A stretch of 33,602 nt of DNA from a bacterium. GTDB lineage: Bacteria > Patescibacteriota > Saccharimonadia > Saccharimonadales > UBA4665. The translations under genes were made by a program, and so were the position numbers. The stretch lies in the NCBI GenBank assembly GCA_021851735.1, contig JAJZCD010000009.1, positions 1-33,602 on the forward strand, in the 5' to 3' direction. Shown here in pieces: positions 5,878 through 31,954 of the stretch. Position 1 is the first letter of the stretch. Every line of letters begins with the position of its first letter. The notes below the pieces were generated by a model, which saw nothing but the letters and a program-made list of their open reading frames with translations, did not search any database and was not told the DNA's origin.

Positions 5878-7020
5878 ATGAAAATTGGATTAGTGTTGCC
5901 GTACAACATCACGAAGAGTGGTGGCGTACAAGAACAAGTCTTGGCGCAGCAGGCTGAGTTAACTCGGCGCGGACATGACGTGACTGTACTGACTCCGCAG
6001 CCCCGTGATCCGTATACTTCTGACGGCCGTAAGTTTATTTTTTTGGGCACAGCAACAGATCTGAAAACGCCGCTCAATACAGTTGCGCAAGTGAGTGCTA
6101 GTGTGCTGACGGACGAGATTGACAGCGTGCTTGAATATGAGCAGTTTGATGTACTGCATTTTCATGAACCATGGGTGCCGGTGCTAAGTCGCCAGATCTT
6201 AAGCCGCAGTAAGGCCATTAATGTCGCTACCTTCCATGCCAAATTACCTGAGACGATGGTGAGCCGCACGATGGCACGGGTTATTACGCCCTACACCAAA
6301 CCACTACTACGACACATTGATGCATTTACTGCAGTATCTGAAGCAGCAGCGGAGTATCTGATGAGCCTTGCGGACGTGCCGGTAGAAATCATACCGAACG
6401 GCGTGGACATTGCTCGTTTTCGCAGGCCTGCAAGTTTAGCACAACAAAAGTCAAAACGCCAGAAGACGATTCTTTACATTGGTCGGCTTGAACATCGCAA
6501 GGGTTTAAAGTATCTACTGCGTGCCTATGCACAAGTGGAAGCAGATACGCCACAGGTATGTTTGGTCCTGGCCGGTGATGGACCGGACCGTGAAAAACTG
6601 GAGCTATATGCTAAAGATCTTGGTATACAGCGTGCTACGTTTTTGGGGTATGTTGACGATGTACATAAGCAAGAGCTGCTGCATACCGCCGACCTGTTCT
6701 GTTCTCCGGCAATCTTTGGTGAGAGCTTTGGCGTTGTACTGCTCGAAGCGATGGCAAGCGGGTTGGTGACGGTTGCCGGCGATAACCCAGGCTACCAGAG
6801 CGTTATGCAGGGCCTTGGCAGATTATCGCTCATTAATCCTAAAGATACGTCACTGTTTGCGCATCGTTTGCAGTTGCTACTCTTCGACGAAGATCTTCGC
6901 ACGCTTTGGAAGAAATGGGCCAAGGACTACGTACGCCAATTTGACTATGCGAAGATCGTCGACCGCTACGAAGTATTGTACAAAGCCGCTATACGACAAA
7001 AGAAGAAGCAACAGTCATAG
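5878..7020 (+). CDS. GT4-family glycosyltransferase (PimA-like)
   Basis: The 380-residue protein is a GT-B fold retaining glycosyltransferase. The N-terminal MKIGLVLPYNITKSGGVQ carries the Gly-rich acceptor loop (SGGVQ, as in PimA-type mannosyltransferases). The donor domain has LYIGRLEHRKG, AGDGPDREKL and GYVDD, and the E-x7-E signature in FGESFGVVLLEA. Family knowledge points to transfer of a hexose from a nucleotide sugar onto a lipid or glycan at the inner membrane face; the sugar is not predictable. TATAAT with an extended TG (5861-5866) ends 12 nt upstream and AAGGT lies next to the start. Its stop is 7 nt before a second, related GT4 gene, so the two probably act in succession. Confidence 0.9.
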   Translation: MKIGLVLPYNITKSGGVQEQVLAQQAELTRRGHDVTVLTPQPRDPYTSDGRKFIFLGTATDLKTPLNTVAQVSASVLTDEIDSVLEYEQFDVLHFHEPWVPVLSRQILSRSKAINVATFHAKLPETMVSRTMARVITPYTKPLLRHIDAFTAVSEAAAEYLMSLADVPVEIIPNGVDIARFRRPASLAQQKSKRQKTILYIGRLEHRKGLKYLLRAYAQVEADTPQVCLVLAGDGPDREKLELYAKDLGIQRATFLGYVDDVHKQELLHTADLFCSPAIFGESFGVVLLEAMASGLVTVAGDNPGYQSVMQGLGRLSLINPKDTSLFAHRLQLLLFDEDLRTLWKKWAKDYVRQFDYAKIVDRYEVLYKAAIRQKKKQQS

Positions 7021-7027
7021 AGGAAGC

Positions 7028-8149
7028 ATGAAGATAGGTCTGGTGCTTGACGACACCCTCGATACGCCAGACGGCGTGCAACAGTATGTGCTGCGCGTGG
7101 GGACGTGGTTTAGCAGCCAGGGTCATGAAGTGCATTATCTGGTTGGACAAACCAGCCGGAGTGATATACCGAACGTCCATAGTTTAAGTCGCAACCTGGG
7201 GGTGCGATTTAACGGCAACCGTATGTCTATGCCCTTGCCGGCCTCTCGCAAGCAATTGCGGCGGCTTTTAGCAGAAGTACAATTTGACGTCTTGCATGTG
7301 CAAATGCCATATAGCCCGTTTATGGCTGGGCGGTTACTCCGTTTAGCACCGGCTAGTACGGCGGTAGTCGGTACGTTCCATGTCTTGCCATATGACTGGT
7401 TTGTGCGGACCGCAAACCGTGCGCTGGCGCTCGCAAATAGCCGTACCGCCAAAAGGTTTGACGGCGTAATCGCTGGATCGCCGGCGGCGGCAGCGTTTGC
7501 GCGGAGCTGTTACGGGCTGCAATCGCGCGTTATCCCCCATCCGTTTAGCTACAAGACGTTTTTAGTCAATGCCCCCAAGAACTCAACACGCACCATCGTT
7601 TACATGGCGCGTCTGGTAGAGCGCAAGGGTGCTCAGTGGTTTTTAAGAGCCGTTGCTGAGCTTGCGCGACGCGGCGAGTTGCCTAGGGACGTTTCTATTA
7701 TCATCGGGGGCAAAGGGCCATTGCGAGATAAACTTGAAGCGTACGTACGACGTACCGGGCTTTCTCAGCAGGTTACTTTTACTGGCTTTGTTCCAGAGGC
7801 AACCAAAGCTCAATTCCTAGCACAAGCCGATATAGCGGTATTCCCGAGTGTATCGGGAGAAAGCTTTGGTATTAGCATTATCGAAGCCCTAGCGGCCGTG
7901 CGTGGCGTAGTGCTGGCCGGGGACAACCCGGGATACCGGGCAGCAATGCCCACTACCAATCAGTTACTTGATCCTACCGATACAAGCCACTTTGCTATGG
8001 AATTGGCACGTTGGCTGGCTGACCCGGCAGCACGCCGCAAAGCTGCATCGGTTCAAAAGCAATATGCTGCACGTTTCGATGCGGATACGGTATGTGCGCA
8101 AGTTGCGGCAGTTTATGCGGAAGCTTTGCAAAGCCGACGGGAGTCATGA
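7028..8149 (+). CDS. second GT4-family glycosyltransferase
   Basis: The 373-residue protein is a second GT-B enzyme related to its upstream neighbour: MKIGLVLDDTLDTPDGVQQ (acceptor loop with DGVQ), VYMARLVERKGAQW, GGKGPLRDKLEAY, TGFVPEATK and the E-x7-E motif in SGESFGISIIEA. Start is ATG 7028, preceded by AGGAAG next to the previous stop; the frame is open much further upstream (to 6773), but that part overlaps the first gene and is a shadow. Tandem GT4 genes suggest sequential sugar additions to one acceptor. The SGG of the first enzyme is PDG here, hinting at a different acceptor. Confidence 0.9.
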   Translation: MKIGLVLDDTLDTPDGVQQYVLRVGTWFSSQGHEVHYLVGQTSRSDIPNVHSLSRNLGVRFNGNRMSMPLPASRKQLRRLLAEVQFDVLHVQMPYSPFMAGRLLRLAPASTAVVGTFHVLPYDWFVRTANRALALANSRTAKRFDGVIAGSPAAAAFARSCYGLQSRVIPHPFSYKTFLVNAPKNSTRTIVYMARLVERKGAQWFLRAVAELARRGELPRDVSIIIGGKGPLRDKLEAYVRRTGLSQQVTFTGFVPEATKAQFLAQADIAVFPSVSGESFGISIIEALAAVRGVVLAGDNPGYRAAMPTTNQLLDPTDTSHFAMELARWLADPAARRKAASVQKQYAARFDADTVCAQVAAVYAEALQSRRES

Positions 8150-23107: not shown

Positions 23108-25555
23108 TTACTTGGTTGGTTTTGTCTTGTCAAGTTGTCGTAGCTTGTACTCCGTATACCGCTCTGCAGCTAGGCGACTGAGCTTAGGGCTCTCACCTTG
23201 GTTTACGAACTTCATGGCTTCAGCGAGCATAGGGTGTACTTCAGCGACTTTCTCGTGCATTTGCAGTACGAGCTTCCGGTAGCCGGGATGACCTTGCGGG
23301 CTTGTGCGCAACTCGTGTAGGTGGAATGCCTCGCGGGCGTTGTAGGTAATTTTCCAACGCATTTTATGGCCTAGTAGCGTAGCGTATTGAGCTTCTAGTT
23401 GGTGCCCGCCAGCTTGCAGCGCGCTATACAGTTGCAGACTTGCGTCAAAGCACTGTTCGAATGCGTCGGTCAGCCCAGCATCCTCGACCAGCGTAGGCAC
23501 GTCGTAACCGTAGCGGGGGCTCAGGGCTTGCCACTCAAGATCATTAACCATTCGATGTCGCTGTAGGTCGCGGAAGATGCCATAGTCGCACACTAGGTCG
23601 AAGCTATAATTAACTTTTTCTAGAGCACGTCCCGGCCGATGGCGCCGATTCAAGCGCTCCCCCATGTAACTCGTGAAGACGTCTATTTTGCGTTGGTATG
23701 GCCAGGTAGCAACTTCTTTACGCAAGTCTTTGAGTGATAGGTCGCTGTGCTCGTATAGCATGTCCGCCACGATGTCGAGCTCATTAGGCGGGTTGTAATC
23801 GACTAAAGTTACCGGTGCCGTCTCGGCAGTGTGGTTCGGTGGTAGATACTCATGAGCGAGTTTCTTGACGGCTTGGAAGGTATTAGCGCGGTACGCTATC
23901 GTGGCACCGCCACGATCAGGCTTATCGGCCCGTTCCAGGAATACTGACGCTACCTTGCGTGCCTCACCAAGGATCTGTTGACCGGTGGTTCGCGCTTCTG
24001 GCAGCTCATCGCTGAGCAAGTGCATGATTAGGCTCTCAAGTGCTTGGCCTGAGGCGTATATGCCTACGGTTGATTTGGTAGCTACAGGTAACAGCGGTCG
24101 GATAGCGTCACAGGCCTGGGCTTTGGTGGCTCGACGCCAAGCAGCATCCTGTTTAGATTTTGGCGTGTTTGTTGTGGTACGGACGTATTGTGTGAGATCG
24201 CTGACTAGCTTTGAGTAGCTGTCAAAAATCTGATCCATGGTACGGACGTATTGGGTAAGCAGCTTACCTTTTAAGCTACCCGGTGTGTAGTAGCGATATC
24301 GACCAGTTGCGTCTTTTTGGTCGAAATAGATATACCTGGTAGATTGCTCTAGATACGCCGCAAGTCTACCCCATTCCAGTTTTTTTGTGAGTAGGTTACT
24401 GGCATTCTCGACAACAATGTATTGTCCGGCCAATTGCTGTACTGAGTCGTCGCCGTATGCGGTAATGACGCGGTGTAACAATTGTTCATTTTTTTCAACT
24501 TTACCTATAAATTCATCAAGTAAGGTGGCTCGCAGGTCATCACTACGTCGAGATAAACGCGCCATAGCGGCAGCTATTGTAATGGGTGATAGCTTATCGG
24601 TGAACCCGTACACGTCGCCCGTTGTATTGGTGACGAACTGGGCAAGCTCTTCCCTGCCTGCTGCGGTGACGGTCGTAGCGCCGTCTTGCCGCTTTTTGGT
24701 CCAGGGTTCTGTGGTTCTATCTGATGTGCTAGCCGACTTCTCTCCACCCGGTGTAGCTGGATCGTCTGTTGGTTGCCGATCGCTAGAACGTACACTGTTT
24801 GGTTGTTGCTGTGCGTCTGAGTTGTCGGTTTGCGTATTGGACGGCTTGGCAGGTGTTACCTTGGTCGGCGGGTTGGCAGCAAGTACTTCAGCGACTGACT
24901 GCACCTTTGACGGTTCAGCACTGTCAGGACGAAGTGTGAGCGTGTTTGCGACATGCTGCCAAATGTGTCTGAACACCGTTCCAACGTCCTCGGTGGCATA
25001 TATAACTGGTAAGTTGCGCTGTTTGGCTTCCCATAAGTACCCAGCGCGCACTCGTTCTAAGAATGACTCATCCAAACTATCAAATCGTTCACTGGCATAG
25101 CGATCTTTGGTACGTTCGCGTAACGTCGATACCGGTGCGTCCAGTACCAGCATAAGATCGGGTTGCATATCGCCTACGGCAAAGTTAATGATGTCGTTTA
25201 TCTTGTCATAATCTTTGACATCACCTCGTCCGTAGTACTGAATGGCAAGTGTCGTTAAATAGCTGCGGTCCACTAAGCATGTAACACCATTCTCTGTCAT
25301 CTGGCGTATGACTTGTAGTGATTGCGAGCGTGCAGCGTTATAAAGCAAGACTTCAGTGCGCGTGGTCATTGGATAACGTGGATCTTGGGTTAGGTGGTGG
25401 ATGGCGCGGGCAGTCAAATCGTTTTGGCTGTCGGGCTCGTGCATGATTTTAACGGGTATATGTGCGGCTTGCAGCTGCTCGGCAACAAGGTGCACCATGG
25501 TAGACTTGCCGACGCCTTGAGCTCCTTCGATGACTATGTATTTACCGTTACTCAT
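23108..25555 (-). CDS. thymidylate kinase-tandem ThyX-like fusion
   Basis: The 815-residue protein joins successive steps of dTTP synthesis. Residues 1-205 are a thymidylate kinase-like P-loop domain: IEGAQGVGKST (9-19), DRS at 96-98 (DRY/DRH in most Tmk), VLDAP, and a lid RTKDR. A Pro/Thr/Ser/Gln-rich linker spans about 206-310. Residues 311-815 match the long ThyX-like family with two ThyX-fold repeats. The first repeat has YGDDSV (367-372) and EQSTRY (403-408), but WGR at 395-397 where RHR is expected. The second has RHR (666-668), then SPRY, and later REAFHLHELRTSPQGHPGYR-type residues. The FAD/dUMP signature is therefore split between the repeats. SD AAGGGATGA; ATG 25555 overlaps the end of dcd by 8 nt. 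Confidence 0.85.
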   Translation of the reverse strand: MSNGKYIVIEGAQGVGKSTMVHLVAEQLQAAHIPVKIMHEPDSQNDLTARAIHHLTQDPRYPMTTRTEVLLYNAARSQSLQVIRQMTENGVTCLVDRSYLTTLAIQYYGRGDVKDYDKINDIINFAVGDMQPDLMLVLDAPVSTLRERTKDRYASERFDSLDESFLERVRAGYLWEAKQRNLPVIYATEDVGTVFRHIWQHVANTLTLRPDSAEPSKVQSVAEVLAANPPTKVTPAKPSNTQTDNSDAQQQPNSVRSSDRQPTDDPATPGGEKSASTSDRTTEPWTKKRQDGATTVTAAGREELAQFVTNTTGDVYGFTDKLSPITIAAAMARLSRRSDDLRATLLDEFIGKVEKNEQLLHRVITAYGDDSVQQLAGQYIVVENASNLLTKKLEWGRLAAYLEQSTRYIYFDQKDATGRYRYYTPGSLKGKLLTQYVRTMDQIFDSYSKLVSDLTQYVRTTTNTPKSKQDAAWRRATKAQACDAIRPLLPVATKSTVGIYASGQALESLIMHLLSDELPEARTTGQQILGEARKVASVFLERADKPDRGGATIAYRANTFQAVKKLAHEYLPPNHTAETAPVTLVDYNPPNELDIVADMLYEHSDLSLKDLRKEVATWPYQRKIDVFTSYMGERLNRRHRPGRALEKVNYSFDLVCDYGIFRDLQRHRMVNDLEWQALSPRYGYDVPTLVEDAGLTDAFEQCFDASLQLYSALQAGGHQLEAQYATLLGHKMRWKITYNAREAFHLHELRTSPQGHPGYRKLVLQMHEKVAEVHPMLAEAMKFVNQGESPKLSRLAAERYTEYKLRQLDKTKPTK

Positions 25556-26261
25556 AACTCATCCCTTCGATCTTTTGCGGCAATGTACGGTGATCTTTCC
25601 ATGCTTGCGGGAGCATGAGACTAGGCGACCATGATTTGATAAGCATATCAAGATCTGTTCCCGCCTGGTACTTGCCGCTAAACCCATTATCCCGGCCGGC
25701 ACCGTACGTGTCCTCTACTGGTCCGGTTTCGTGGAAAATGATTTGCGCGATACGTTCGCCTACTGGAAGCACTACTGTTTCGCGGTTGTTTAGATTGTAG
25801 ATTTCTAATGTCAAGCGGTTGATACATCCTGGGTCTATCCATCCAGTGTCGAAGCAAACAGCAACGCCGTTTCGTCCCCAGCTGCTACGACTGCGTACTT
25901 CGCAGGCGCCCGGTGGTTTTATGCCAAAGAATTCGTGCGTGTGTGCAAGAATACGCTCACCGGGTTTGAGTGCAATGACTGGGTGGTTGTCCGGGATACC
26001 AACAATAGGCTTAAAGCCGTTTAGTGCACACCATTTAGCATGAGGCATTGCCTTGTATGGCCCATCAAAGTGTCGTTCAACATTTTCACGGTCAAATGGA
26101 TTGTAGACAGCTCGCTCAGTTGTCGTCTCGATGCGGTAGTAGTAATAACCAAGTGTAACGTCAAGGGACGCATTAGCGACGTGCTGGGGAGTAAGTGGGT
26201 GGCATACAATATGGTTTTCTGCTATAAACTGCCGAATTTGAGTATTGCTGAGTACGCTCAT
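25548..26261 (-). CDS. dcd: dCTP deaminase-like protein
   Basis: The 237-residue protein belongs to the dCTP deaminase/dUTPase trimer family. Seen: EVRSRSSWGRNG (the conserved Ser-Arg segment), DTGWIDPGCINRLTLEIYN with the catalytic Glu in LTLE, as in deaminases, and PVGERIAQIIF. It is longer than the usual 170-195 residues, with extra sequence around residues 40-85 and a C-terminal extension (KSWSPSLMLPQAW onward). It should supply dUTP or dUMP for the ThyX-like fusion with which it overlaps by 8 nt. AGGAGGT lies 11 nt before ATG 26261. Confidence 0.88.
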   Translation of the reverse strand: MSVLSNTQIRQFIAENHIVCHPLTPQHVANASLDVTLGYYYYRIETTTERAVYNPFDRENVERHFDGPYKAMPHAKWCALNGFKPIVGIPDNHPVIALKPGERILAHTHEFFGIKPPGACEVRSRSSWGRNGVAVCFDTGWIDPGCINRLTLEIYNLNNRETVVLPVGERIAQIIFHETGPVEDTYGAGRDNGFSGKYQAGTDLDMLIKSWSPSLMLPQAWKDHRTLPQKIEGMSYE

Positions 26262-27059: not shown

Positions 27060-27587
27060 CTAGTTGACAGTATAATGCAGGAGTATATTGTTAGGGCCGA
27101 GCGGCTTACTATCGTGCAGTGTAATCTTATTTGTGAGTGGTTCGTTGAACAGTGGGACCCCTCTGCCAAATAGTGTTGCTTGCATATCTATGTATAATTC
27201 GTTTACGAGGTTAGTGCGCATGAATGCGGTATAAATTTGTGAGCCGCCACATACTGCTAGCGTCTTCACTCCTTCGCTCTCAAGTTGCTTGACGAGCGTT
27301 GCGGGATCTTCGTTGACTGCTTCGACATTTTGGTAGCCGGATACTTTATCGGGGTTGTGGGTGTATACCAAGAGTCGTCGCCCGGGCATAGTTTTGTTGA
27401 ATACGCCTGGTGCTGCCTGGGCAATTGTCATAAACGTGGTGAGGCCCATGACCATGTTGTTAGCATCCTTCACAAGATGGGTAAACAAGTATCTATCCTC
27501 TTTGTTCGTCCAAGCCGTGGATCGATGATTGGTGCTATTACCTATGAATCCATCCGCTGTCATGGCGGCCACTATGATGACTTTCAT
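27060..27587 (-). CDS. dihydrofolate reductase family protein
   Basis: The 175-residue protein has the DHFR/RibD-C fold: VIIVAAMTADGFIG at the N-terminus, TAWTNKEDRYLF with the acid D expected at the folate site (W-x4-D-x3-F), MVMGLTTF (the MGRxT position is MGLTT, so the Arg is missing), GRRLLVYTH and VCGGSQIYTAF near the NADPH site. Both FolA and RibD-like reductases are possible; ThyA nearby needs DHF recycled, which favours FolA-like activity. Its ATG overlaps the TGA of the deaminase gene (ATGA, 27584-27587), so it is the last gene of a coupled operon. AGGAG lies just upstream. Confidence 0.82.
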   Translation of the reverse strand: MKVIIVAAMTADGFIGNSTNHRSTAWTNKEDRYLFTHLVKDANNMVMGLTTFMTIAQAAPGVFNKTMPGRRLLVYTHNPDKVSGYQNVEAVNEDPATLVKQLESEGVKTLAVCGGSQIYTAFMRTNLVNELYIDMQATLFGRGVPLFNEPLTNKITLHDSKPLGPNNILLHYTVN

Positions 27588-28543
27588 ACATGTCTCCTAA
27601 CCTTTTTGTCTGATAACTCTAGTATCTTGACGGCGTAGCCATCGGAATGATCCTCTCGATAAACGATCTCGGCAATGTCAGTTCGCGATATCATACGGGC
27701 GCAGGCTGGGCACGGCAGTAAGTTGATAAACATTGTTGTATCGTGCAGATCAATGCGTTCACGCTGAGCCTTGATAAGTAATTCAACCTCAGCGTGTGTG
27801 GTGTCATAGTAGTTCAGATCATTGGGCGGTGAAAAGTTGGTTTCCCGTGAGGCGCCATAATGCATGGCATATGTCTGATATGGCAATACGGAGTTGTAGG
27901 CGCGTGCTAGGAGTTTATACGTTGCCGTACTTCTTCGTCCTAAAGCGACCCCAGTTTGAAAGCCGTAATCGTACGAATGCTTGGCAATCCGGTCCGCTAT
28001 TTCCAGCATCCCGCGCTCATTAAACGTGCCGTTCGTCGGTATGTCTGGTAATACTGTCTGTGCAGCGAAAGCTTTTGCCTCAGCTTCATCGGTAAACGGA
28101 GATACCAGCTCGTATGGTGTATTTCGTGTCACTAGTACATAGTATGGTGTTTGTGTGTGAAACGAGTATTTCCATGAGCCGTTAATGAATACGGTCTTTC
28201 GAAAGTCAAGTTTTTCAAGGATATAGCGCAACTCTCGTTGAAAATAGTGAAGCGTATACACCTTATGTTTGCTGGTAGAGGCAGTAACCTTATCTATGAC
28301 AGCCTGCACGGTTGCTACGTCAAGCGTGCGAAATTGTGGCTGGTTCTCAAACCCAAGTACGTACGGCTCTTTGGCGAGGCCAAGTATGACGTTACCTTCC
28401 GGTAGATAGGTCTTTACAAGCTGCGCAAAACGTGGCTCACTGATCTCGCGCGGTGCGGCTATAAATGTTGCAGATAGCGAGTTGACTGGTTTTTTGCTGC
28501 CGAAAGCTAGACCGCTCCAGTCAAACGCTGTTGGGTCGGTCAT
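27584..28543 (-). CDS. cytidine/dCMP deaminase-type protein with large N-terminal domain
   Basis: The 319-residue protein ends in a zinc deaminase domain (about 180-319): THAEVELL holds the zinc His and catalytic Glu (H250, E252) and LLPCPAC the two zinc Cys (277-281), followed by AEIVYREDHSDGY as in dCMP deaminases. The first 170 residues are not part of a normal deaminase. They contain FIAAPREI, EGNVILGLAKEPYV, FENQPQFRTL and RKTVFINGSWKYSFHTQTPYY, and I cannot name the domain. The start is ATG 28543, which overlaps the TGA of the HIT-Nudix gene (ATGA). By family it would make dUMP from dCMP for ThyA. The extra domain may bind the substrate or partner proteins. Confidence 0.8.
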   Translation of the reverse strand: MTDPTAFDWSGLAFGSKKPVNSLSATFIAAPREISEPRFAQLVKTYLPEGNVILGLAKEPYVLGFENQPQFRTLDVATVQAVIDKVTASTSKHKVYTLHYFQRELRYILEKLDFRKTVFINGSWKYSFHTQTPYYVLVTRNTPYELVSPFTDEAEAKAFAAQTVLPDIPTNGTFNERGMLEIADRIAKHSYDYGFQTGVALGRRSTATYKLLARAYNSVLPYQTYAMHYGASRETNFSPPNDLNYYDTTHAEVELLIKAQRERIDLHDTTMFINLLPCPACARMISRTDIAEIVYREDHSDGYAVKILELSDKKVRRHV

Positions 28544-29532
28544 TGTAACTTCAGTACCTTTCGTAACATGGTGCGTGTGCCTGATGGTACGCGCTTGGAT
28601 TCTATTGCATATTGGATGTTCATCCAGATTGATGGTTGAGGGCCAGTGGCTGGCGTTACCTTGGCGTGATCTGCAGTTTTGTCGCACACTAGGTACGTAT
28701 TCAGTAGAAATATTTGGGGTGTGTTATATGATGTCCCAAGATGCGGCTCGTACATAGTGTGGCGTGTTCGTTCGGTGTGAGATCCTATCAACGTTAGTGT
28801 TTCCTGGTTAATGCTCAGACCGGTTTGGTCGTGGACTATACGGCCTAGTTCATTTTCTAAGGGTACGCTGAAATCCTCCACGTACCCACCGGGCAGCATA
28901 AGCGTCTTCAGGGGTAGACGAGTGTCTTGGCTATTTTCCATCAATAGCACTTCTCCATCTTTATTCATAATAATGGCGCTACAAGATATTGGTACGCTTG
29001 ATGGCTGTGCATACTTTTCATAGTATTTTGTGCTAAGTGCAACGATTTGCTTGGATTGCGCTCGATATAGCTCGGCGTTTTCGAGCGGCGTATGCTTGAG
29101 CGTGCGATAATTCCAGACGGTCATGTCGGGGCTGTCGGATGGTATACAGTGGATGTGTAGGTGGTCTTGTACAGTACTGTTTACGGCCGCACCTCCGTCG
29201 CGAATGACGTATTGCACGTCCTTGAGGCCGTGAACTTTACGGATGAGTTTTTTGGCTATGTACATCATTTTTCGGGTTGTTTGCCATTCTCTTTCAGTCA
29301 ATTCTTTAACGGATTTTATATGGCGACGGGGAATAATCATCAAGTTACCGTCGATGTACGCGTACAGTGCTACGGTCATTACCATACCGTGCTCTTCGTG
29401 GAAAATGTACTTATTCCGTAAATCGCAAAAAACACACTTGCCTACAGTTGTCCAAATCTTGCCGTAGTAGCCGCCAGTTCGTGCGTCGCGGTAGTACACC
29501 TGCTTTTTTTGCTCTTCCGGGGTGAGTTTCAT
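28540..29532 (-). CDS. HIT-Nudix fusion protein
   Basis: The 330-residue protein joins two nucleotide-hydrolase folds. Residues about 25-135 are a HIT domain with CVFC (33-36, zinc) and the histidine triad HLHIH (124-128) in an otherwise standard setting (RDGGAAVNSTVQDHLHIHCI, cut as VNSTVQDHLHIHCI). Residues about 180-325 are a Nudix fold: SAIIMNKDGEVLLMEN, LPGGYVED and GRIVHDQTGL. The Nudix box is degenerate: after GGYVED the catalytic RExxEE is GRIVHDQ, so both key Glu are lost and the domain may only bind. HIT enzymes cleave nucleoside phosphate anhydrides or transfer NMPs. The gene overlaps both neighbours by 4 nt. Confidence 0.85.
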   Translation of the reverse strand: MKLTPEEQKKQVYYRDARTGGYYGKIWTTVGKCVFCDLRNKYIFHEEHGMVMTVALYAYIDGNLMIIPRRHIKSVKELTEREWQTTRKMMYIAKKLIRKVHGLKDVQYVIRDGGAAVNSTVQDHLHIHCIPSDSPDMTVWNYRTLKHTPLENAELYRAQSKQIVALSTKYYEKYAQPSSVPISCSAIIMNKDGEVLLMENSQDTRLPLKTLMLPGGYVEDFSVPLENELGRIVHDQTGLSINQETLTLIGSHTERTRHTMYEPHLGTSYNTPQIFLLNTYLVCDKTADHAKVTPATGPQPSIWMNIQYAIESKRVPSGTRTMLRKVLKLQ

Positions 29533-30089
29533 CGGCGTTCCTTGAGAGGATCTTTGCGTAGCTCCATAAAATCCTTGAAGACGTCGCCTAGCTGGCCTCC
29601 GATAGCCCGCTGTATGATTTTAGTCGTACTCAGCGCCGTAGACTGGCGATCGACAACCTTAACCTCGCCACCATATTTAGTGACGATTTTGTATTCTTTG
29701 GACTCCTTATATGCCGACGCCCAGTCTTCTTTGACAGTAATGAATACGTCAGGCTTCAGTAACCCTAGTGCTGGGACACAGCTGGGCTCCGGTAGTATAG
29801 TGACGAAATCTACGCTTCGCAGGTAGGTGAGCATTTCGGCGCGCAGCTTTTCGTCTAGGATCGGCTTATTGGAACCCTTTACCCTACGGATGGCCTCATT
29901 ACCGCTGACGCCGACAACTAAAATGTCGCCTTCTTTCTTAGCTTCTTCCAAATACCGGCATTGACCGACGTGTAGCAAATCCCAGGAACCAGCCGTAAAC
30001 ACGACTTTTTTATTTTTTTCTTTGAGCTTTTCATGAAGCGCCATTAAGTCGCTCATAGTCACCAGCCGTTTTTTCCAGGCAGCTACCAT
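29529..30089 (-). CDS. cytidylyltransferase-like nucleotidyltransferase
   Basis: The 186-residue protein has the HIGH-superfamily nucleotidyltransferase core. TAGSWDLLHVGQCRYLEEA (32-50) follows G-x-F/W-D-x-x-H-x-G-H, but the second His is Gln (HVGQ). LVVGVSGNEAIRRVKG follows, and the C-terminal TALSTTKII fits the R-x-G-h-STT motif. Relatives are the RfaE2/HldE adenylyltransferases, glycerol-3-phosphate and phosphocholine cytidylyltransferases. Preceded by GAGGGG, 8 nt before ATG 30089, and 32 nt downstream of the kinase gene. Together with the APH-fold kinase it could form a kinase-nucleotidyltransferase pair making an NDP-activated small molecule, but this is inference. Confidence 0.82.
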   Translation of the reverse strand: MVAAWKKRLVTMSDLMALHEKLKEKNKKVVFTAGSWDLLHVGQCRYLEEAKKEGDILVVGVSGNEAIRRVKGSNKPILDEKLRAEMLTYLRSVDFVTILPEPSCVPALGLLKPDVFITVKEDWASAYKESKEYKIVTKYGGEVKVVDRQSTALSTTKIIQRAIGGQLGDVFKDFMELRKDPLKERR

Positions 30090-30121
30090 TATTATGTCCC
30101 CTCGTTATGCTTGATCATTGC

Positions 30122-31093
30122 TTATTCTAACATGGCTATTTGCGTTAGCGTGTTGCGCTTTAGTAAACAGTTGCGAGTACGAATAAAATGTTCGTTTTGT
30201 TCCAAGAATTCGTACGGGTTGTGCAGCAGGAACTTGTAAAAATCGTAGAGTAAGAACAGCTCAATGAGCGGTTTTATGGTCGCTATATGTGGTAGCTTTG
30301 CCTTGCCGCGTTTGCTATACCCAGAGTAGAGGAAGTACTTATGCACTTTATCCGGTGTCTTATACTTACAGTCGACTAGTAAGAACGCTAATGTACGCGC
30401 AATGTCAAACGCGGGATGGCCCCATGCAGCTTTTTCAAAGTCTATGATACCGGTAATCTCGTTGGAATGAATCTCGAATAGGACGTTGCCTCGAACGAAG
30501 TCCATGTGCAGTGCTTGCTGGCTTGGTAGCATTTCAAGTTTGCGTACCAGAGCTTTATAGTTTGTAAGGTTTTGCGGTGGTCGCAATGCTAGTTTCTCAG
30601 CCATAGCAGACTGCACACCGGGGTTGTTGAAATATTGTTCCATACGGCAACAAATCGCATGGTACTCGTCGGTTACTAATGGCAGAGTGTCTTTAGTAAG
30701 ATCTCTTAGAACAGCATGCGTGTCACTTAGTGCTTTGCCAAGTTGTTTGATATGTCCCATCGTGTATGCTTCCCATGGGATGGTCTTGCCGGGCAAGTAA
30801 TTGTACAGTGCGCCGTAACGCGTTCTTGCGCCAACATGAAGGCAGATTATTCTATGATCTATTGTCTGACGTACCGGGAGACCGTGCGTTGCTGCGTAAT
30901 TGGCCACGCGGTTGGCATTATTTATGCGACGTAACATGGCACGCTCATACTTGTATATAACGAGGTTTACTTGCCGTCCGTTTTTTAGCGTAGCGGCATA
31001 TGACTCATTCCGATACCCCTTTTGTGCGGTGTGTATATAGTCTGGGGACAAGCCGTATTGTTGTAGAATTCGTCTCACTACCTTCTCTGTCAT
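30122..31093 (-). CDS. APH-fold kinase/phosphotransferase
   Basis: The 323-residue protein is an aminoglycoside/choline kinase-like enzyme: LHMDFVRGNVLF contains the HxDxxxxN catalytic loop, and GIIDFEKAAWGHPAFDIAR the metal-binding IDFE and the downstream acidic region. The N-lobe has NLVIYKYERA-type Lys near residue 50. Members phosphorylate choline, ethanolamine, sugars or drugs; resistance is not implied. Start: ATG 31093; TATACT lies 4 nt upstream (leaderless). The frame is open upstream to 31252, but that overlaps thyA and is a shadow. It is first in a five-gene coupled operon and divergent from thyA with a 48-bp gap. Confidence 0.85.
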   Translation of the reverse strand: MTEKVVRRILQQYGLSPDYIHTAQKGYRNESYAATLKNGRQVNLVIYKYERAMLRRINNANRVANYAATHGLPVRQTIDHRIICLHVGARTRYGALYNYLPGKTIPWEAYTMGHIKQLGKALSDTHAVLRDLTKDTLPLVTDEYHAICCRMEQYFNNPGVQSAMAEKLALRPPQNLTNYKALVRKLEMLPSQQALHMDFVRGNVLFEIHSNEITGIIDFEKAAWGHPAFDIARTLAFLLVDCKYKTPDKVHKYFLYSGYSKRGKAKLPHIATIKPLIELFLLYDFYKFLLHNPYEFLEQNEHFIRTRNCLLKRNTLTQIAMLE

Positions 31094-31141
31094 CGTGAGT
31101 ATAGTGTACAGGATCGGTCGGCTTACGCTATACTTCCAGTC
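31094..31141. promoter_or_regulatory. divergent promoter pair thyA / kinase operon
   Basis: In 48 bp there are two -10 boxes facing away from each other: TATACT 7 nt before thyA ATG 31142 (+) and TATACT 4 nt before the kinase ATG 31093 (-). Clear -35 boxes are absent. Both mRNAs should be leaderless or nearly so, and the shared region allows common control of thyA and the operon that contains the DHFR-family and deaminase genes. Confidence 0.6.
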
Positions 31142-31954
31142 ATGACACATCCGGAGTACGAGTACCTTAAGCTCATGGTGGAAATCATCAAGAATGGTAA
31201 GAGTAAACCGACGCGTGGCATTCATGGCATTACGTCCATTTTCGGTGCGCAAGTGCGATTCGATATGCGGGCCGGCTTTCCGTTGTTGACAACTAAAAAG
31301 ATGCCGTTCAAGACTTTACTACACGAACTCCTTTGGTTTGTATCCGGGACCTCTGATGTAACATACTTGCACGAACATGGGATCAAATATTGGGATGGTT
31401 TTTTGCATGAGGGCTCTAACGATTTAGGCCGTATATACGGCGTACAGTGGCGACATTGGAAACGACCGGATGGCAGTGAGTTCGACCAGTTGCAATGGGC
31501 GATAGAGCAGCTCAAAATGAGCCCGGATTCTAAGGGTATCATTGTTAATGCCTGGAATGCCGGCGAGCTTGACGATATGCGTCTCCCTCCCTGTCATACC
31601 ATGTTCCAGTTTGATCTAACGAAGGGCAAATTGCGGTTGCAACTCTATCAGAGGTCTTGGGATGTTTTTTTGGGCGCTCCGTTCAATATTGCCCAATATG
31701 CTTTGCTTCTACATATGGTTGCGTATCTAATTGGAGCGGAGCCGCGAGAACTGATTGTGGCTGCTGGCAACGCGCATTTGTATAAGAATCATATAGCAGA
31801 CGCCAAAGAACAACTCAAGCGTAAGCCGTACCCCTTTCCAAGGCTCAAGCTGGTTGGTGACGTTGAAACCATTGATGACTTCAAGGAAGAAAACTTTATT
31901 CTGGAAAATTATCAATCACATCCCCGCATAAAAACAGATCTAGTTATCGTTTGA
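31142..31954 (+). CDS. thyA: thymidylate synthase ThyA
   Basis: The 270-residue enzyme makes dTMP from dUMP with methylene-THF. Seen: R25 in the phosphate-binding loop (TRGIHGITSIFG), TTKKM, GRIYGVQWR, the catalytic Cys in LPPCHTMFQF (C151), QRSWDVFLGAPFNIAQYALL-type segment with R171 and the dUMP-specific Asn (N182), and AHLYKNH with H212 and Y214. Asn at 182 marks a dUMP rather than dCMP enzyme. Two departures: the TGTG after R25 is GIHG, and AGNAHLY has Asn where most have GDAHLY. Length is normal. It is leaderless (TATACT, 7 nt) and divergent from the kinase-to-DHFR operon. Confidence 0.96.
   Translation: MTHPEYEYLKLMVEIIKNGKSKPTRGIHGITSIFGAQVRFDMRAGFPLLTTKKMPFKTLLHELLWFVSGTSDVTYLHEHGIKYWDGFLHEGSNDLGRIYGVQWRHWKRPDGSEFDQLQWAIEQLKMSPDSKGIIVNAWNAGELDDMRLPPCHTMFQFDLTKGKLRLQLYQRSWDVFLGAPFNIAQYALLLHMVAYLIGAEPRELIVAAGNAHLYKNHIADAKEQLKRKPYPFPRLKLVGDVETIDDFKEENFILENYQSHPRIKTDLVIV

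Follow-up and report, generated by a model that had tools for sequence, protein, structure and literature searches.

Work on ThyX as an antibacterial target and as a mechanistic model has always treated it as a symmetric homotetramer. Double-length ThyX proteins occur in chlamydiae. In the complex of PolB, the UMP methylase of polyoxin synthesis, the substrate is contacted by R82, H83, R86 and R193 from one monomer and by E94', S96', R98' and R166' from its neighbour (PMC5003785); these contacts would correspond to R74, Q75, R78 and R174 and to E86, S88, R90 and R147, respectively, of T. maritima ThyX. In PBCV-1 ThyX, monomer A provides Q75 and R182 and monomer B provides S88 (PMC3498832), and in the T. 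maritima enzyme H53 is contributed by a third subunit (PMC11940539). A duplicated ThyX was noted in Chloroflexi in 2009 as uncharacterised (Valas and Bourne, PMC3224940). Our literature search, which combined ThyX with Saccharibacteria, Patescibacteria, CPR and kinase fusion and left most subscription journals outside its reach, returned no account of a split site, a kinase fusion or a series of decayed copies, and the literature searched contained no activity or structure for any tandem ThyX.

A kinase-linked tandem ThyX gene and its relatives

The stretch of DNA analysed here (the window, 33,602 nt) belongs to a 1.13-Mb genome, 97.7% complete and in 53 contigs, whose relatives are Saccharibacteria. 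Positions 23108–25555 carry, on the minus strand, one uninterrupted frame with no internal stop that encodes 815 amino acids. The original prediction described this protein as a P-loop Tmk-like domain followed by a linker and two ThyX-like repeats, a layout borne out by Pfam and Thy1 searches. Pfam placed Thymidylate_kin at residues 9–198 (81.4 bits) and Thy1 in two stretches totalling 121.6 bits (gathering score 24.8), the best of them at residues 584–775. In a genome-level search each repeat was matched separately by Thy1 (PF02511), placing the fusion protein in the Thy1/ThyX superfamily through both repeats, and its score against the NCBIfam ThyX equivalog TIGR02170 was below the cut-off (47.9 vs 87.9 bits).

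The kinase domain (residues 1–205; 24941–25555, minus strand) contains the P-loop EGAQGVGKS and scores 94.7 bits against TIGR00041, above the cut-off of 83.25, as expected of a dTMP kinase. It is the sole PF02223 match in the window's genome; in the family, 33 of the 56 genomes with any PF02223 match have exactly one, nearly always the fused copy. The low-complexity linker that follows (residues 206–294; 24674–24940, minus strand) is rich in T, P, S, A, D and Q. At about 90 residues it is at the upper end of a range of ~30–90, most other relatives compared having 30–56, and its length and variability suggest tethering and not a fixed tunnel.

ThyX repeat 1 (residues 295–560; 23876–24673, minus strand) scored 56.8 bits against Thy1 and aligned with canonical ThyX in hhalign at a probability of 97.3, and the corresponding values for repeat 2 (residues 561–815; 23111–23875, minus strand) were 65.5 bits and 97.9. 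The two repeats have diverged so far that hhalign cannot align one with the other (probability 0.6%), and their kinship follows from the fact that both match canonical ThyX. An AF2 model based on a 25-row alignment had a pLDDT of 76 and a pTM of 0.75. In this model repeat 2 superimposed on T. maritima ThyX (1o26) with a Z of 13.4 over 191 residues at 2.9 Å, and residues 332–373, approximately, of repeat 1 lay in a low-confidence region; a model of repeat 1 alone, predicted without an alignment, reached a pLDDT of 41.8 and was set aside. Repeat 1 is assigned to ThyX from sequence profiles, the structural match covering repeat 2. A PDB profile search with the tandem alignment gave no match; the relatives were found via Pfam, hhalign and fold comparison.

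Full-length homologues of the fusion, 59–72% identical, are present on independent contigs in dozens of Saccharibacteria genomes throughout the order, to which nearly all fused frames seen belong (Saccharimonadales). Fragmentation of the assembly into 53 contigs might raise the concern that the fusion is an assembly artefact or a chance joining of frames, but the same architecture recurs in many independent genomes and its ThyX half is 63–77% identical across Saccharibacteria, which rules this out for all practical purposes. The Tmk–ThyX order is thus a feature of many genomes besides that of the window. Tandem ThyX as a whole, fused forms counted in, was found in about 58 of 333 phylum genomes drawn; kinase-free tandems of about 440–620 residues are scattered over the wider phylum, and one further kinase-free tandem lies on a viral contig (L102). 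A 518-residue tandem ThyX whose residues are split as described below is also encoded by Tunturi_5, a 309-kb jumbo phage of the acidobacterium Tunturiibacter (L223, 1477–3033), where the gene adjoins one for dCMP deaminase. In a Giovannonibacteria genome (L087), a 446-residue minus-strand frame near a stand-alone tandem ThyX encodes another kind of fusion, whose C-terminal part is a Tmk domain.

The fused kinase exists as two types, both matching Thymidylate_kin, that share about 69% identity within a type and about 27% between types over a partial alignment. The second, dissimilar type (FDFPQY...SSYFVREYLNGxYG) was seen at the same fusion position, the N-terminus, in L056, L060 and about 25 other loci. 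In a phylogeny built from the ThyX half, parsimony requires at least seven switches of Tmk type, a count that depends on a weakly supported backbone, well-supported branches forcing far fewer; repeated swapping of one Tmk type for another within the fusion is therefore suggested, not shown. If such exchange is true, the presence of some dTMP kinase on the synthase outweighs which one it is.

Division of the ThyX active-site residues between the repeats

Residue equivalences were taken from the hhalign profile alignments to canonical ThyX described above and are given in T. maritima numbering. The motifs on which the original prediction was built, WGR at 395–397, ExSxRY at 403–408 and RHR at 666–668, are all present. 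In repeat 1 the signature WGRLAAYLEQSTRY (residues 395–408; 24332–24373, minus strand) retains the equivalents of E86 (E403), S88 (S405), R90 (R407) and Y91 (Y408), while R78, H79 and R80 are represented by W395, G396 and R397, so that R78 and H79 are gone. Downstream, R486 (24098–24100, minus strand) is the R147 equivalent according to the profile alignment and the comparison of 34 tandems below, and the position of R174 is occupied by L513.

Repeat 2 has the opposite complement. Its RDLQRHR segment (residues 662–668; 23552–23572, minus strand) supplies R74 (R662), D663 at the position of Q75, and R78, H79 and R80 (R666, H667 and R668). Further equivalents lie in NAREAFHLHELR (residues 739–750; 23306–23341, minus strand), namely those of N163 (N739), R165 (R741), N169 and R174 (R750). 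E86 and R147 have no equivalents in this repeat, their positions being A677 and Y724, and the equivalents of R90 and Y91 are variable among relatives. The tail of the signature in repeat 2 had been described as altered; it is indeed changed, but a related SPRY (residues 679–682), with S679 and R681 at the positions of S88 and R90, survives after a three-residue insertion, as part of an SPRYG motif (residues 679–683; 23507–23521, minus strand). As a result, neither repeat on its own contains the complete RHRxxSxNExSxRY signature, repeat 1 reading WGRLAAYLEQSTRY and repeat 2, split by the insertion, RHRMVNDLEWQALSPRY, and yet the dUMP-site residues of canonical ThyX are all present in the fusion, divided between the repeats, with Q75 replaced by D663. 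The position of the folate-stacking H53 corresponds to D369 in repeat 1 and lies near P641 in repeat 2. Since H53 is kept in neither repeat, the aligned residues suggest that folate stacking or handling may differ from that of canonical ThyX.

Every residue listed above is retained in the Saccharibacteria homologues that were aligned. Among 34 divergent tandem ThyX proteins, repeat 1 keeps E86 (33/34), S88, R90 and Y91 (34/34 each) and R147 (33/34), and R never occupies its R78 position. Repeat 2 of the same proteins keeps R78 (34/34), H79 (31/34), R80 (33/34) and R174 (34/34) and has D at the position of Q75 in all 34; in place of R147 it invariably has Y, and at the E86 and R90 positions it is variable. 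The window protein shows the residue partition of the Patescibacteria tandems. Because the two retained sets match the monomer and neighbour sets of the solved enzymes, repeat 2 is expected to form one side of the dUMP pocket and repeat 1 the other. The complementary sets would leave one complete site per chain, and the reciprocal second site should be dead. A composite active site across the two repeats, as originally proposed, thus has strong support in sequence from the complementary residues of 34 tandems, and no result argues against the two halves coming together.

Exclusion of ThyA and decay of fused copies

We compared the occurrence of the tandem with that of ThyA, assigning presence by hand from score tables. 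Across the class (244 genomes), 2 genomes had both an intact tandem and a strong ThyA, 64 had only the tandem, 138 had only ThyA and 40 had neither, which places ThyA in 2/66 genomes with an intact tandem vs 138/178 without one. The phylum draw of 333 genomes gave 1, 57, 150 and 125 for the same four categories. Fisher values of 2e-28 (class) and 3e-16 (phylum) overstate the significance, the genomes being related. Even so, the exclusion is the pattern expected of two thymidylate synthases that can replace each other, and since genomes with the tandem almost never have ThyA, the intact tandem is probably the thymidylate synthase of the cells that carry it without ThyA. The two class genomes with both are that of the window and G156; ThyA is absent from the other 64 of the 66 intact-tandem genomes, and in the window's genome, given its ThyA, the synthase function of the fusion may be redundant.

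The dCTP deaminase gene (25548–26261, minus strand; Pfam DCD, 112.2 bits) overlaps the start of the fusion gene with its end by 8 nt, and a dCTP deaminase gene also lies beside the fusion in five other loci (L095–L097, L099 and L100). Six kilobases from the fusion lies a ThyA/DHFR cassette, the thyA and DHFR-like genes of which the original prediction did not mention. It comprises, on the minus strand, a DHFR/RibD_C-like gene (27060–27587; Pfam), homologues of which are found near ThyA in L093 and L094, a dCMP/cytidine-deaminase-like gene (27584–28687) and a HIT–Nudix protein gene (28540–29532), the last two identified by Pfam and compared across relatives, and, on the plus strand, a conventional, complete thyA (31142–31954; Pfam Thymidylat_synt, 334 bits; NCBIfam NF002497, 335 bits, cut-off 327). 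The combination of HIT–Nudix, deaminase, DHFR and ThyA is found beside the fusion in the window, G208 (L093) and G156 (L094), and parts of it (ThyA, HIT and deaminase) are present in G171 (L092). Between the window, G171 and G208, the ThyA proteins share about 80% identity. The cassette at 27060–31954, shared with these ThyA-bearing relatives (L092–L094), looks like an acquired thymidylate pathway. Elsewhere in the window's genome (contig C33, 2406–2759), a 211-codon frame gives a weak PF00303 match (42.7 bits) and represents a second, diverged ThyA-like protein.

An intact fused ThyX stands alongside the cassette in the window and G156. In five other ThyA-bearing genomes (G171, G208, G124, G075 and G207) the fusion is present and the catalytic residues of both repeats are lost, and the fused copies of G118 and G131, which have no ThyA and carry a separate intact tandem, are likewise catalytically dead. 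Where a second synthase is encoded elsewhere in the genome, then, the fused ThyX half has usually been stripped of every catalytic residue. All seven dead copies (L092, L093, L096 at 6131–8077, L097 and L099–L101) keep the T-P/A-R-Y-G motif of repeat 2 at 679–683 (TPRYG; TARYG in L100) and the L-GH positions L727, G729 and H730, and the kinase P-loop is preserved in each of them whose N-terminus can be read. Because of this retention, the dead copies may be under selection for something besides synthase chemistry.

Proposed function and comparison with known enzymes

We consider it likely that the fusion is a bifunctional enzyme, a ThyX-type thymidylate synthase with an asymmetric composite site joined to a thymidylate kinase. 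An ancestral ThyX would have duplicated in tandem, after which the two copies specialised, repeat 2 to provide the flavin-side residues (R78-H79-R80, R74, the Q75 position and R174) and repeat 1 to provide the dUMP-binding loop and phosphate residues (E86, S88, R90, Y91 and R147). The composite site could be built by the repeats of one chain or of two, and two chains would form a pseudo-tetramer in which two composite sites work and two are dead, unlike the four identical sites of canonical ThyX, both the pairing and the catalytic activity being predicted. The product dTMP would be turned into dTDP by the kinase on the same chain, which is the sole dTMP kinase of the window's genome, and the tandem would be the sole thymidylate synthase in most relatives. 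Direct passage of dTMP from the ThyX site to the kinase, which the original prediction considered possible, is speculative.

The presence of ThyA and DHFR within the same window raises another explanation, namely that here the ThyX half is in the course of being lost, with ThyA having taken over and the fusion being retained only for its essential kinase. Loss of the fused catalytic residues with retention of the kinase in five ThyA-bearing relatives would fit such a course, as would the similarity of the window's ThyA to those of G171 and G208, but every catalytic residue is still present in the window protein, which departs from near-invariant positions at 7 of 236 sites, compared with 9 of 237 in a ThyA-free sister; we regard this course as rather unlikely for the window's genome. 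A little less doubtful, though still below even chances, is a second, non-catalytic role of the ThyX half for the kinase (dimerisation, regulation by dUMP or dTMP, or stability), owing to which it is not simply lost beside ThyA. This would account for the motifs that the seven dead copies preserve together with the fusion itself; these copies are few and strongly diverged, however, and the conserved stretch may be mere fold core. Finally, the tandem might act on another substrate, UMP or a modified dUMP, and not make dTMP, considering that PolB, with its ThyX fold, can use UMP (PMC5003785), that Q75 has become an invariant D and that H53 is lost in Saccharibacteria. The near-complete exclusion with ThyA, the fusion to a dTMP kinase and the linkage to dCTP deaminase all point to dTMP instead and make this very improbable. 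Beyond the bifunctional enzyme itself, we tentatively propose, at somewhat less than even chances, that tandem ThyX is a widespread asymmetric synthase with half its sites dead and that in Saccharibacteria its C-terminal half has become a non-catalytic accessory of the kinase that outlives loss of synthase function when ThyA arrives.

With a single complete composite site in each chain, the tandem would be an asymmetric ThyX provided by nature, and the two sides of its site could be mutated separately. The exclusion with ThyA predicts the route of thymidylate synthesis in a large, uncultured group of host-attached bacteria, and the series of decayed copies would capture one thymidylate synthase replacing another, in action.

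The fusion shares with canonical ThyX (Thy1, PF02511; T. maritima TM0449) its fold, its catalytic residues when summed over both repeats and the link to dTMP synthesis, but the canonical enzyme has one repeat per chain and forms a homotetramer with four identical sites, whereas the fusion has two diverged repeats per chain with complementary halves. PolB likewise has the ThyX fold, and its structure supplies the subunit assignment used here; unlike the fusion, it consists of a single repeat and prefers UMP. The N-terminal domain resembles Tmk (PF02223, TIGR00041) in being a P-loop kinase that scores above the curated cut-offs, except that Tmk is not joined to a tandem ThyX and that relatives of the fusion have two dissimilar Tmk types in the same place. 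The bifunctional DHFR-TS of protozoa also joins two steps of thymidylate metabolism, but its synthase is of the ThyA type and is joined to a folate-recycling enzyme rather than a kinase. As far as can be compared by description, the duplicated ThyX of Chloroflexi (PMC3224940) differs from the fusion in that its account mentions no kinase domain and contains no analysis of the active site.
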